Origin: Bettongia penicillata ogilbyi
Taxonomy: Eukaryota > Chordata > Mammalia > Diprotodontia > Potoroidae
Length of the DNA: 64,000 nucleotides
Direction: 5' to 3'
NCBI GenBank assembly: GCA_023548195.1
Contig: JAJHZJ010000496.1
Coordinates: forward strand, 8,883,644 to 8,947,643
Numbering within the stretch: position 1 is the first letter of the stretch; every line of letters starts with the position of its first letter. The translations under genes were made by a program, and so were the position numbers. Positions 11,651 through 33,574 of the stretch are shown one piece after another. The notes beneath the pieces were generated by a model. That model was not told the origin of the DNA and did no database searches. It saw only the letters and a program-made list of their open reading frames with translations.

Positions 11651-11899
11651 AACTGAATCATAGGTCCTACCCTCAGTCCTTTCCTCTAAACAATAGGTTG
11701 TGTTGCTTTTTAACATTTTACATTCTTCTTTTAAAAAAATTAGTATTTTATTTTCTCCCAATTACATGTAAAAACAATTTTTAATATCTGTTTTTAAAAC
11801 TTTGAGTTTCAAATTCTTTCCTTTCTTCCCTTCTCACCTCCATCATTTAGAAGGCAAGCAATTTGATATAAGCTATACACGTGCAGTCGTGCAAAACGT

Positions 11900-12842
11900 A
11901 CTTCTATACTAGTTATTTTGTGAAAGAAAACAGACCAAAAAATCCCCTCAAGAAAAATAAAGAAAATTTTAATAAGTATGCTCCAATCCGCATTCAGACA
12001 CCATCATTTCTTTCTCTGGGGATGTATAGCACTTTTCATTACAAGTCCTTCAGAGTTGTCTTAGATCATCGTATTGCTGAGAAGAGCTAAGTCATTCATG
12101 ATATCTTACAATATTGCTATGCTTTCTGCCTATATATACTTATAACTGCCTTAGTATTTCACTTTGCATCAGCTCATGGAAGTCTTTCCAAGTTTTTCTG
12201 AGAGAATCCTGCTCCTCATTTCTTAAAGTACAATTATATTCCATCACAACCACACCGCATAATTTGTTCAGACATTCCCCAACTGATAGACAACCTCCCA
12301 ATTTCCAACTCCTTGCCACCAAAAAAGAACTACTATAAATATTTCTGTACATATAGGTTCTTCTGCACATATAAATTCTTTTTTCCTTTTTTTAAACTCT
12401 CTTTTTGGTTACAGACCTAGTAGTAGCACTGCTAGGTCAAAGGGTATGCATGGTTTTATAACCCTTTGGACATAGTTCCAAATTGCTCTACAGAATGGTT
12501 GAGTCAGTTCACAACTCCCCCAACAATACTTTAATATCTCATTTTCCCCACATCCCCTCCAGGATTTTTAATTTTTCTTTTTTGTCCTATTAGTCAATCA
12601 AATACATATGAGGTAATACCTCAGAATTGTTTCAATTTGCAATTCTCTAAATCAATAGTGATTTAGAGCATCTTCTCATATGGTTATAGGCAGCTTTCAT
12701 TACTTCATCTGAAAAGTATTCATATATCTTGGTCATTTATCAATTTAGGAATGGCTCCTATTTTTATGAATTTGACTGAGTTCTTTATATAGTTGAAAAA
12801 AATGAAGCCTTTTTCAGAGAAACTTGCTTCAAAATTTCTTTC
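11900..12842 (-). pseudogene. L1 ORF2 C-terminal remnant
   Basis: On the minus strand this is the ORF2 C-terminal region. GGGAGGTTGTCTATCAGTTG, then blocks for the IFIAALF-like segment and the CWR..G..G..HCWW zinc-knuckle-like area near 12,540, all frameshifted. The 76-codon minus frame at 12,140-12,370 contains FLVARSWKLGGCLSVGECLN, the counterpart of the usual L1 ALF-AK-WK block. No catalytic domain is present. Confidence 0.65.
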
Positions 12843-12974
12843 ACAGTTACAGTTACTAAATATATTTACCTTCATCCCATTCCCACCCCCCTGTTTATTT
12901 TATTCTCTCTCTCCTTTCACTCTGTCCTTTTTCAGAAATGTTTTGCTTCGAGTTACTACCTCCCCCAATCTGCC

Positions 12975-13400
12975 CTGCATTTATTTTCAATGTCAGTATT
13001 TTTCCCCAATGAGATATTTCACATTGTCTTCCATTTTTTTCATTCTTTTGTTTTTTTATTGTTTTTTGATTTCTCATAATGATATTACCATCTAATTGTT
13101 CAAATCTAATTTTTAAGAATTTGGCCAATTCTCTTTTTCTTCTCCTCATTGGGTTTTTATGCCTCTTTTATAACTTAACCTATTCTGTTTTTTAAGGTAT
13201 CATTTTATTTAGTATTTTTTGTGCTACCTTTACCAAACTGTTGACCCTTTTTTCTTGATTTTCTTGCATCACTTCATTTCTCTTCCCAATTTTTCTTCTA
13301 TTTCTCTTAATTTTCAAAATTCTCCTTGAGCTCTTCCAAGGATTGAAACCAATTCATATTTTTCTTGGAGGCTTTGGATGTCGGAGTTTGGCTCTGCTTC
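12975..13400 (-). pseudogene. L1 ORF1 remnant (coiled-coil region)
   Basis: Aligns base by base with the ORF1 of the L1 at 17,533-18,594. 13,020-13,110 pairs with 18,080-18,170 (shared TCATTCTTTTG and GATTTCTCATAA blocks). 13,270-13,340 pairs with 18,365-18,440 (shared CTCTTCCCAATTTTTCTTC). The usual start region (MPKKGKK in the other copy) is missing, and the RNA-binding and C-terminal domains are lost at the internal junction. Many stops, so a pseudogene. Confidence 0.65.
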
Positions 13401-14047
13401 CAAGGTAGAGAACACACTGTCCCAAACTTCAGGGGTTTTGTGCATTTGTTTTTTAAAAGTACTTCTAGGGATCTGTAAGTTTTCAGTTCTTTCAAGGTGG
13501 TATGATCTAAAGGAGAGGAGTGTTTACTACCCTCCTGGCTGTGAGTGACATCAATCACTCTTTTCTTCCCTAGAACTGTGATGAGGGTCCCTGATCCACT
13601 GCCATTGCAGTGTAGCACCGTGGTGTGCTGGTGCTCCTCATCACCCTGGGGCTGTCCCCCAGGCCTGGCATCCAGATCTGAATATGGGCAAAGCAACAGA
13701 GTCCTGCCCCCAGTGCCAACAAAGTGAACTTTGTAATCTCTTTCTGATCAGTTCAGCCCCCTTACCATCTGTGGCCTTAGGACTCTGGAAGCAGCCACTG
13801 ACACTGCTAATTCAGTGACTCCCAAGGCCAGCTCCTTATTTGCTGGAGCTAGGGCTTTGCTGGCACAGTCTTCACTGGACTGTACTCCACTCTCACTGTG
13901 TGTGACAGATCTTTCTTGCCAAACTTACCTCGACTTTTTGTGGCTTCTGCTGCTTTAGGAATTGCATTATTTAAAGGTATTTGGAGGGGTTTGGGGGAGT
14001 GCTCAGGTGAATCACTGCCTTTTCTATGCCATCCTGACTCTGCCTCC
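13400..14047 (-). promoter_or_regulatory. L1 5'UTR (decayed)
   Basis: Region between the L1 5' start and ORF1. It contains GC-rich tracts with CTGGGGCTGTCCCCCAGGCC and related blocks. 13,460-13,510 aligns with 18,640-18,690 of the other L1 (GGGAATCTGTAAG and TCAAGGTGG-type blocks), so this is 5'UTR sequence. L1 5'UTRs act as internal promoters. Activity of this decayed copy is unlikely. Confidence 0.55.
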
Positions 14048-17006: not shown

Positions 17007-17022
17007 CTGCCTTTTATTTCTT
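17007..17022. repeat. Target-site duplication, left copy
   Basis: CTGCCTTTTATTTCTT next to the poly(T) (minus-strand poly(A)). It matches 19,397-19,412 except for one base. The duplicate begins at an AAGAAATAAA on the minus strand, consistent with L1 endonuclease preference for T/A-rich nick sites. Confidence 0.75.
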
Positions 17023-17052
17023 TTTTTTTTAGTCATAAATGTGTTTTTTATT
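17021..17052 (-). other. Polyadenylation signal and poly(A) tail of the chimeric retrocopy
   Basis: On the minus strand AATAAA (17,052-17,047) is followed 16 bases later by about ten A residues (17,030-17,021). That spacing is normal for a mature mRNA 3' end and marks the retrocopy boundary. Confidence 0.75.
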
Positions 17053-17503
17053 ACCCTTCCCCAATAAGGGTTGGGGGGATCCTTTCTTACAGAGTAATGT
17101 CCAAACTTTTTAGCTTGTCATTCCATGTTTTCCAGAACTGGTCACTACCTACTCTTCCAGTTTTAGTGACTGCTACTTCCCATCTGCAACCCATGGTTCC
17201 AGCTAGACCTTGTGTCCTTTTTATCCCTTGAACATATACAGTTCAAGTGAGGTCATCCTTTGGACCTAGACAGATCCTTCCCCATAATTCCAGATCCAAA
17301 TCAAGAGCTACTTCCTCCAGGTTGGGATCCCTGAGATGCCCCACTGTACTGGTCCATTGGGAGAGAATGCTCCACATAGCAGTTCACTAATTCTGGGGTG
17401 TGATATCTAGCCAGCATGGTGATGGACTTCAAAACTTTTTTCTTGACAATCATTGAGTCAGTGGAGATCAGGAGGCCATAGAGGCTCTGGCAGGTGTCTG
17501 AAA
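17031..17503 (-). pseudogene. 3' end of a host mRNA retrocopy, MROH-like coding tail
   Basis: Minus strand from about 17,503: an open frame of 67 codons ending in TGA at 17,301-17,303, then about 270 bases of 3'UTR, AATAAA at 17,047-17,052, and poly(A) 17 bases later. The peptide has SLYGLLISTDSMIVKKKVLK followed by SITMLARYHTPELVNCYVEH and SLPMDQYSG. The pattern of an alpha-helical repeat, then PELV and LPMD, resembles maestro heat-like repeat (MROH) proteins, which are HEAT-repeat scaffolds. This is my recollection of the family, not a search result. The first 13 codons of the longer frame (MTFEHKNQEKHEK) are L1 sequence, not host. The copy lacks an intron signature, is 5'-truncated and follows L1 ORF1 directly, so it is a processed fragment. 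Confidence 0.5.
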
Positions 17504-17532
17504 CCTTTTCATGCTTCTCTTGATTCTTGTGT

Positions 17533-18594
17533 TCAAAAGTCAAATTTTCTTTTCAGCTCTGGTCTTTTCATCAAGAATGCTTGAAAGTCCTCTCTTTCAT
17601 TGAAAGACCATTTTTCCCCCTGAAATATTATACTCAGTTTGGCTGGGTAGGTGATTCTTGGTTTGAGTCCTAGTTCCTTTGACTTCTGGAATATCCTATT
17701 CCACACCCTTCGATCCCTTAATGTAGAAGCTGCTAGATCTTGTGTTATCCTGATTATATTTCCACAATACTGGAATTGTTTCTTTCTAGCTGCTTGCAAT
17801 ATTTTCTCCTTGACCTGGGGACTCTGGAATTTGACCACAATGTTCCTAGGAGTTTCTCTTTTTGGATCTCTTTCAGGTGGTGATCGATGGATTCCTTCAA
17901 TACTTATTTTGCCCTCTGGTTCTAGAATATCAAGGCAGTTTTCCTTGATAATTTCATGAAAGATGATGTCTAGGTTCTTTTTTTGATCATGGCTTTCAGG
18001 TAGTCTCATAATTTTTATATTGTCTCTCCTGGATCTATTTTCCAGGTCAGTTATTTTTCCAATGAGATATCTCACCTTATCTTCCATTTTTTCATTCTTT
18101 TGGTTTTATTTTATGATTTCTTGGTTTCTCATAAAGTCATTAGCCTCCATTTGTTCCATTCTAATTTTTAAAAAACTATTTTCTTCAGTGTGAGCTTTTG
18201 AACTTCCTTTTCCATTTAGCTAATTCTGCTTTTGAAAGCATTCTTCTCCTCATTGGCTTTTTGAACCTCTTTTGCCAATTGAGTGAGCCTATTTTTCAAG
18301 GTGTTATTTTCTTCAGCACTTTTTTTGGGTCTCCTTTAGCAAGATGTGGACCTGCATTTCATGCATCATGCATTCTCTTCCCAATTTTTCTTCCACCTCT
18401 CTTACTTGATTTTCAAAATCCTTTTTGAGCTCTTCCATATTTATTTTGGATGTTTGGGATACAGAAGCCTTAACTTTTATGTCTTTCCCTGATGGTAAGC
18501 ATTGTCCTTCCTCATCTGAAAGGATGGGAGAAGATATCTCTTCACCAAGAAAGTAACCTTCTATAGTCTCACATTTTTTCCCTTTTTTGGGCAT
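17533..18594 (-). pseudogene. L1 ORF1 (RNA-binding chaperone), disrupted
   Basis: ORF1 encodes the trimeric RNA-binding protein that coats L1 RNA in the ribonucleoprotein particle. The minus-strand ATG at 18,594 opens 93 codons (MPKKGKKCETIEGYFLGEEI at the start), ending in coiled-coil sequence (MEELKKDFENQVREVEEKLG) and a stop at 18,313-18,315. The middle of the coiled coil (18,312-18,088) is readable only in shifted frames. The last 184 codons (18,087-17,533), in the first frame again, hold the RRM and C-terminal domains. Marks include RRDNIKIMRLPES, ETPRNIVVKFQSP, KEKILQAARKKQ and LKPRITYPAKLSIIFQGEKW. Total span is 354 codons, near the usual ORF1 length of 330-370. The stop and frameshifts make it a pseudogene. 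Its 3' neighbour should be ORF2 but is a foreign transcript. Confidence 0.85.
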
Positions 18595-19396
18595 TTTCCC
18601 AACCAGTTACTTGACTTTTGGGTCCTTTGTCAAGAGTAGAGTATACTCTGGGAATCTGTAAGATCTCAGTTCCTCCAAGGTGGCACAGTCAAGTGTACAC
18701 ACTGGTCTGGGAACAGTAAGAGATTTTTGTTCCCAGAATCCTAGCAGTTACCTCTCCAGAGTCACCTGGTCTCCAGTTCCACCAAGTCAGCACTGGGGGC
18801 TGGTTTTCAGATAAGCTGTGGGGGCAGGGATGCCATTCAGTGTGAGACAAAGACTAGCTCCCCCAGGGCCTTTACACAGGGCTGAGGTAATATTCAGCTT
18901 CTCAGTGCCCCCAGGGGTTTTTACGCTCCAACAATGGATGTAGGCAGCTGTACAGGCTGCTGTGTGGCCTCTGTGGCTGCTGCCTGCTGCTGGAGCTATG
19001 GAAAGGCCCTTCTCCCTTCCCAGCCAGTTGAAAAACCCCAGTCACTGACCTTTGGTGCCTGTGGGTTGAGGGATCTGTGAACCTGCTGCTGCTGCTGCAG
19101 CGACTGGGGATTCGCTGCTACTTGCCTGGAGATTCTGCCCCCAATGCATCCCCCTCCCAGAGTCGCACCTCATAGTGTGCCCAAGGCTGGGCTGGGCTCC
19201 ACTCTGGGTCCCATGCAACCGACATTTCCTGTGGGCCTTTCAGGTCACCCTGGGCTGGAAATCTCCTCCACTCCATTGTTCTCCACTTCTACTGCTGCAA
19301 AATTTGTTGAGAGTCCCTCTCTACAGGTATTTTATGGGCTGTGTGGGGAGACTGTGTGTATGTGTGTCTTTCTACTCTGCTATCTTAGCTCTGCCC
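18595..19396 (-). promoter_or_regulatory. L1 5'UTR, apparently full length
   Basis: On the minus strand it starts with GGCAGAGCTAAGATAGCAGA, the counterpart of the start of the L1 at 14,044. It runs about 800 bp to the ORF1 ATG and is GC-richer than its surroundings, with a CTG/CAG run at 19,084-19,101. In this family the 5'UTR is an internal RNA polymerase II promoter. A complete 5' end is unusual because most L1 copies are 5'-truncated. Confidence 0.65.
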
Positions 19397-19412
19397 CTGC
19401 CCTTTATTTCTT
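19397..19412. repeat. Target-site duplication, right copy
   Basis: CTGCCCTTTATTTCTT, directly abutting the L1 5' start at 19,396. Partner of 17,007-17,022. Confidence 0.75.
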
Positions 19413-32880: not shown

Positions 32881-33048
32881 GGTGACTATGACTGTGAGAG
32901 CTGAGCTTTCAGAAGAGAGGAGTCCACTATGGCCAGTCTTGGTTTTCAGAGGCAGTGGCAGTTAGGTGACTATGACTGTGAGAGCTGAGCTTTCAGAAGA
33001 GAGGAGTCCACTATGGCCAGTCTTGGTTTTCAGAGGCAGTGGCAGTTA
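32881..33048. repeat. Perfect 84-bp tandem duplication
   Basis: Unit one 32,881-32,964 and unit two 32,965-33,048 are identical at all 84 positions, starting GGTGACTATGACTGTGAGAG and ending GGCAGTGGCAGTTA. The following GG extends the match two bases. Identity is complete while nearby repeats are heavily decayed, so the event is recent or is an assembly artefact. Confidence 0.95.
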
Positions 33049-33574
33049 GGAAAATACCTAACACAGATGAATGTGGAAAGTGTTGCATCTTGATGTTTCT
33101 GCTGCCATCACTGGTAATACCAGAATGCTAAGAAATCTGTCCATTTTGTGACCCTGAGGAAATGTGTGATCTCCAAGGGTGGAAAAACAACCTAATCGAG
33201 TCCTGAAACTACATGTGTGTAGCTACTTAAATTCCTGAAGCAGGAGGGGATCTCCAAGTTCCCCAAACTCTTTCTGGGATGCAGTGGGTCATACCATTTT
33301 TCTTTCCCTTGCATCTGTCTTTTTCTCAGTGCTTTTGAAAAAATAATTTTTAAAAGTTCTGTTGACAAGTTTTGCTTTTACAAAAACATTTTTATTAAAA
33401 TGCCTTTATTTTATTTGACATTTTATTAAAGTGTTTATTAAAAACATTTCCAGATTACTGTCCCTCCCCCAAGTACTGGAGAGATCTCAATAGAACTAAG
33501 TAAATTATTCACACAAGACTAATAGTACAGTGACCTCATCTGAAAGTGCATGTGACATTCCACATTTGTAGCAC
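33049..33574. other. Unassigned stretch
   Basis: No gene or repeat recognised. A short TTTATTAAA-rich patch lies at 33,385-33,445. Confidence 0.35.

Follow-up and report, generated by a model that had tools for sequence, protein, structure and literature searches.

How an L1 5' end and the 3' end of a host transcript came to share one insertion is the question raised by a locus of Bettongia penicillata ogilbyi. The window, by which the whole analysed stretch of 64,000 nucleotides is meant, corresponds to C557:8883644-8947643, and the assembly scanned comprises 3.39 Gb. A single insertion within a target-site duplication occupies 19396-17023 of the window on the minus strand and reads, 5' to 3', as a full L1 5' end, a broken ORF1, the 3' end of an MROH-family gene, AATAAA and a short poly(A) tail of 8 A (Table 1).

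Table 1. Features of the insertion and its target site, in window coordinates (a slash within a sequence marks the exon-intron boundary or break).
Feature	Positions	Strand	Basis
Target-site duplication, 5'-end copy	19397..19412		15/16 identical to 17007-17022
L1 5'UTR, apparently complete	18595..19396	-	5/39 other scored L1 copies align from start
L1 ORF1, frameshift and stops in middle	17533..18594	-	RBD-like and dsRBD-like domains readable
L1 spacer past ORF1 to splice donor AAAAG/GTAAAC	17505..17532	-	Related L1 continuations
Junction AGGT, assignable to either side	17503..17506	-	L1 matches end and exon matches start within it
MROH-family penultimate exon, 185 nt	17320..17504	-	14 differences vs gene A C480:11246140-11246324; PF21047
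MROH transcript 3' end: short coding tail, stop 17303-17301, 3'UTR	17031..17319	-	89% to C480:11247273-11247556
AATAAA polyadenylation signal	17047..17052	-	Sequence; present in gene A too
Poly(A) remnant, 8 A	17023..17030	-	Sequence; directly before duplication
Target-site duplication, 3'-end copy	17007..17022		15/16; flank score above random

The first-pass annotation had proposed one retrotransposed unit within a 16-bp duplication, and this was borne out. The two copies agree at 15 of 16 positions, one CTGCC(C/T)TTTATTTCTT being predicted for an empty target site. Their flank-match score of 13 exceeded the highest value, 9, obtained with up to 300 random flank pairs, so that a duplication by chance was rejected. 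Two independent insertions lying side by side might be entertained in a window with several other L1 pieces, but the single duplication encloses both parts and no poly(A) is visible at the inner boundary, and the probability of this reading is regarded as negligible.

The 5' partner was found to be L1 5'UTR and ORF1, as had been annotated; the ORF1 region carries the L1 domains PF02994 and PF17490, a PDB search with it matched LINE-1 ORF1p chains, and on the minus strand it runs from an ATG at 18594 to a TGA at 17535-17533. Among 17,191 candidate L1 relatives, 40 were scored, the nearest being 85-87% identical when the complete L1 part is compared and reaching 91% in ORF1. Five of the 39 other scored copies align from element position 1-25 to the junction with 85-87% identity, in agreement with the claim of a complete L1 5' end. 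Since no more than 28 nt of L1 spacer separate the ORF1 stop from the host exon, there is no room for ORF2, whose absence had also been recorded. Judging from its sequence, the copy is old and broken. An L1 with the same 5'UTR (one of the five such copies among those scored) was observed at C557:8880126-8881994, 19 kb away, just outside the window and in the opposite orientation. Within the window, a second, degraded L1 on the minus strand (11780-13747) passes from the 5' part of ORF1 soon into ORF2 C-terminal-like sequence and a 3' region, with an internal deletion that is not located at the donor described below, and a perfect head-to-tail duplication of about 86 nt lies at 32881-33050. The spacer pattern of the element's L1 gave 0 matches in the window, and the junction-side L1 sequence gave 0 in the viral contigs scanned.

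The downstream partner had been read as the 3' end of a host transcript with AATAAA and poly(A), which held. It is not solely untranslated, the first 185 nt being a coding exon. The frame following the junction matches HEAT_Maestro PF21047 (Maestro HEAT repeats; 7.2e-11), and a PDB search with the host exon returned nothing significant. A comparison of the host stretch with the genome, which the annotation had recommended, gave five matches (all five candidates scored), namely the element itself, two stretches of gene A, an exon of paralog B and a fragment on C448; neither an L1 family nor another chimera was found among them. Gene A lies on the plus strand of C480, with its exon at 11246140-11246324 and its 3' end with AATAAA at 11247273-11247556, and paralog B lies on the minus strand of the same contig, with one exon matched. 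The C448 fragment, several exons of which are joined without introns, is taken as a processed copy; this intronless multi-exon MROH fragment (C448:115001-125000) breaks off within the penultimate exon. A comparison across the 185-nt exon gave 14 differences between the element and gene A, 12 between the element and paralog B, and 12 between A and B; from these similar divergences, the element may be about as old as the duplication that gave rise to A and B.

Half-L1 elements, termed HAL1, were reportedly described by Bao and Jurka in 2010, and membership of such a repeat family with this kind of 3' end was also considered. HAL1 elements have ORF1p as their sole product and originated repeatedly in mammals, according to the available text of the source (PMC5753468), but with only five genome matches to the host part and no other copy of the same junction, there is hardly any probability that the element belongs to a family of this kind.

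Gene A carries 948 nt between the exon and the 3' end that are missing from the element, at 17319/17320. Paralog B shares the initial 52 nt of this stretch with A, and by eye these continue an open frame. GT-AG ends are absent from the gap (CAGCC/ACCCCC...GTTGA/CTGGAG), and therefore not every break in the element corresponds to GT-AG splicing; the loss could go back to a jump of the reverse transcriptase or to a deletion that the true source gene had undergone.

The break between the partners had been placed at 17503/17504, which was correct within a 4-nt ambiguity, since AGGT (17506-17503) is shared by both sides and is also a 4-nt microhomology. An L1 naturally containing the host sequence was looked for; past 17505, the related L1s continue instead with GTAAAC, GTTAAC or GTTATC. 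Across the break, AAAAG/GTAAACAG was read in L053-L055 (GTAAAC), GTTAAC in L007 and L008, and GTTATC in L006. On the host side, the exon start is ccctcctcccAG/GTTT in gene A as well as in paralog B, the longer reading for gene A being tttttccctcctcccAG/GTTTCAG. The preceding exon of gene A lies 11.7 kb upstream, with an end read by eye as GTGGAGGAG/GTATGA, and none of its sequence was found in the element. The junction is characterized by a GT donor on the 5' partner and an AG acceptor on the 3' partner. Taken together, the donor of the related L1s and the acceptor of gene A indicate that a 5' splice site marks the point where the element exits L1, and a 3' splice site the point where its MROH part begins.

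Further copies of the junction, which the annotation had suggested seeking, were searched for with a pattern made up of the 17 nt preceding the donor and four further positions at which the L1 continuation was disallowed. Of random continuations, roughly one in three would be detected by this design (0.75 to the fourth power), and the element itself escapes it. Genome-wide, it returned 49 places, against 0 for the reversed pattern, the 17-mer itself being present in 13,780 copies. Forty of the 49 were examined; the other nine lie on C138, C208 (twice), C294, C356:21947068, C557:1982374, C607, C820 and C880, and the strings of several of these resemble L1 with small changes. Classification was performed by blastn against L1 loci (some with flanking DNA) and four L1 pieces of the window, together with inspection by eye. 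After the donor, non-L1 sequence was found at 19 of the 40 places, downstream L1 at four and inverted L1 at two, and the rest were L1 with small changes or lay inside ORF1 (13) or had no L1 upstream (2). The 19 places correspond to 17 distinct ones, with L033/L069 and L034/L048 forming pairs. The members of each pair lie on different contigs, an arrangement pointing either to duplicated DNA or to repeat insertion of the same spliced RNA. The number 19 is an upper count, because host transcripts may not be involved in L070, the start of which we take to be SINE-like sequence, or in L059, which looks like a piece of a reverse-transcriptase element. Downstream L1 sequence follows the donor in L049, L072, L035 and L037, the L1 match beginning only 56 and 39 nt past it in L035 and L037, respectively.

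A control of the same design was placed 12 nt upstream of the donor, and another one downstream. The upstream control returned nine places, two of them L1 indels by their strings; the other seven comprised two further L1 indels, two L1 5' ends, one downstream L1, one non-L1 and one without L1 upstream. In L088 and L091, two unrelated places, an L1 5' end follows directly after the same L1 point, as if one L1 had inserted into another. The downstream control returned 67 places, of which 54 were L1 with small changes by eye and 13 were ambiguous; eight of the latter were examined and proved to be L1 (six) or non-L1 (two), the remaining five lying on C308, C330, C485, C607 and C672. Non-L1 sequence was thus present at 19/40 places for the donor, 1/9 upstream and 2 (at most 7)/67 downstream, as raw counts with no common copy-number denominator. 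Non-L1 breaks are commoner at the donor than at either control, and the junction is not a one-off, the same donor being joined to other non-L1 sequences.

The acceptors of these chimeras were evaluated for seven host segments, with L038, L039, L043, L046, L048, L065 and L069 lying outside the search. Fourteen matches were obtained, consisting of the seven chimeras, six presumed parents and a second ORC4-like place. AG was found exactly at the junction in the parents of L036 (ccaatacacag/ATGTC), L042 (ctctcctgttag/GCATTTG), L045 (cttttccag/CATCAAG; 79% identity only), L050 (cattttctag/GGAGATTC) and L051 (cacacatcag/CCATGG), and one base off in that of L047 (ctctaagg/AGTGG); no parent was found for L073 in this search. 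Five of the six presumed parents, or six of seven including MROH, therefore carry AG at the junction, with a chance probability of 1.1e-6 for six of seven at the local AG frequency of 7.4%, or 6.6e-5 when this frequency is doubled for the ambiguity. For L042, the ORC4 C-terminus (PF14629) was matched at 2.4e-5, slightly under the cut-off, and for L050 Trypsin (PF00089) at 1.7e-11. In the genome search, the hit of this trypsin-like segment extends 11 nt into the neighbouring segment. The second ORC4-like place (C995, 78%), which also has AG there, was set aside as a non-parent.

When longer stretches were retrieved for five chimeras, L076, L077 and L080 were found to extend to the L1 5' end; the ORC4-like chimera (L078) is not full length, its L1 part beginning inside ORF1. 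Flank repeats were scored in L076, L077 and L080, with L078 and L079 outside the scoring. The L047 chimera (L080) has a full L1 5' end, a poly(A) and AAAAAGAGTTG directly on both flanks (11/11); its score of 11 compares with a random maximum of 10, the repeat being partly A with an edge blurred by the poly(A). No flank repeat above chance was obtained for L076 or L077. At L049 (C540:6300464-6301164), the same donor is joined at a point that corresponds to cttctcag/ in an L1 copy of the window with 75% identity, and this acceptor-like sequence suggests that spliced half-L1 elements may exist.

The mechanism favoured by the first-pass annotation was template switching, in which the L1 reverse transcriptase copied a host mRNA, here that of MROH, from its poly(A) and then jumped to an L1 RNA. 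Such a jump yields the same order of parts and a single duplication, the shared AGGT is compatible with it, and so is the second, non-canonical jump of 948 nt in the host part. It offers no reason, however, to pick an L1 donor together with the first base of a host exon, as happened here and at five of the six other located parents, in unrelated genes, nor does it lead one to expect non-L1 breaks to be commoner at the donor than at both controls. Template switching is accordingly disfavoured and considered quite improbable, contrary to what had been annotated. An origin at the DNA level, by which an L1 in an MROH gene had its 3' part deleted before the resulting fused transcription unit was retrotransposed, would likewise place L1 upstream of host sequence. 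The first host base, however, is the first of the exon after AG, the intron is absent exactly as splicing would remove it, and the same precision at exon starts was observed in other genes; a fusion of this type is deemed highly improbable.

It is concluded, with strong confidence, that a spliced L1-MROH RNA was retrotransposed as one unit. The locus itself presents a single unit with duplication and poly(A), an L1 donor motif and a canonical host acceptor, from which we infer the splicing event itself and the retrotransposition in trans. Transcription would have begun at the L1's own 5' end, and splicing from the donor 28 nt past the ORF1 stop to the MROH penultimate exon would have skipped ORF2. 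The chimeric RNA would then have received its poly(A) at the MROH gene's own signal, and L1 proteins, working in trans, would have reverse-transcribed it and integrated the copy as a single unit.

Splicing could have taken place in cis, from an L1 within the gene's intron on an allele since lost, or in trans, between two RNAs. The 170 kb surrounding gene A contain matches to the L1 part of the element in antisense orientation only. In the 11.7-kb intron before the gene A exon, the L1 matches are all antisense as well, and a single short sense match corresponds to non-L1 flanking sequence of a reference. A cis source is therefore missing near the gene A exon. Sense L1s are present at paralog B, but upstream of exon n-2, and none was found within 1,500 nt upstream of the ORC4-like exon, a stretch that is maybe not the whole intron. 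The cis route is nevertheless, in our judgement, somewhat the better favoured, and trans-splicing remains as the other route.

The recurrence of the donor leads to a broader proposal, towards which we lean slightly, that in L1s of this lineage a standing donor past ORF1 acts as an exon trap, by which L1 5'UTR-ORF1 is joined to host 3' exons genome-wide. With the 19 non-L1 places corrected for a detection rate of roughly one third, such events would plausibly number about 50-60, with L1-internal acceptors used too. Retrocopies normally lack a promoter. By the route described here, host 3' exons can acquire an L1 5'UTR together with the ORF1 gene in a single step, an exon capture in the opposite orientation to the chimeras catalogued in human. 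If the exon trap is real, full-length cases would bring promoter, ORF1 and host sequence at once, and L1-internal splices could be the origin of half-L1 elements, which would give elements with ORF1 and no ORF2 a testable origin from one donor and many acceptors. Should the donor be conserved in marsupial L1s, the chimeras would become countable, datable and searchable in RNA.

Among known systems, small-RNA/L1 chimeras such as U6-L1, for which ligation or template switching has been proposed, have L1 as the 3' partner. The element resembles them in uniting two RNAs in one insertion and differs in that L1 is the 5' partner. In the literature consulted, no class of splice chimeras with L1 5' and host 3' was found, the nearest being SpIREs and the mRNA-L1 chimeras of Law and Burns (2026). 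With HAL1, as far as described in the available text (PMC5753468), the element shares a retained ORF1 and a missing ORF2; HAL1, however, forms amplified families, whereas the element occurs once and carries the 3' terminus of a gene. SpIREs, in the part of the source available (PMC5860796), likewise arise by retrotransposition of an RNA spliced from a donor within L1, and L049 also looks L1-internal. In human, however, their donor is nt 98 in the 5'UTR and their acceptors lie in the 5'UTR or ORF1, all within L1, whereas in the element the donor follows ORF1 and the acceptor belongs to an MROH-family gene, so that the two sites are not both in L1. The available text of Law and Burns (2026; PMC13174262) reports 17 human mRNA/LINE-1 chimeric insertions. 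They unite host exons with L1 and carry a duplication and a poly(A), and in several of them the join coincides with splice sites. Fifteen of the 17 genes are without an intronic L1, cis or trans splicing is proposed, and for a case that mirrors the present one template switching is disfavoured given the splice junction (PMC13174262). On that description, these insertions and the element are alike in the joining of host exon to L1, the duplication, the poly(A) and the missing intronic source; they differ in that host sequence, mostly first exons, lies there 5' of a near full-length L1, whereas in the element L1 is 5', the host exons are 3' and ORF2 is lost.
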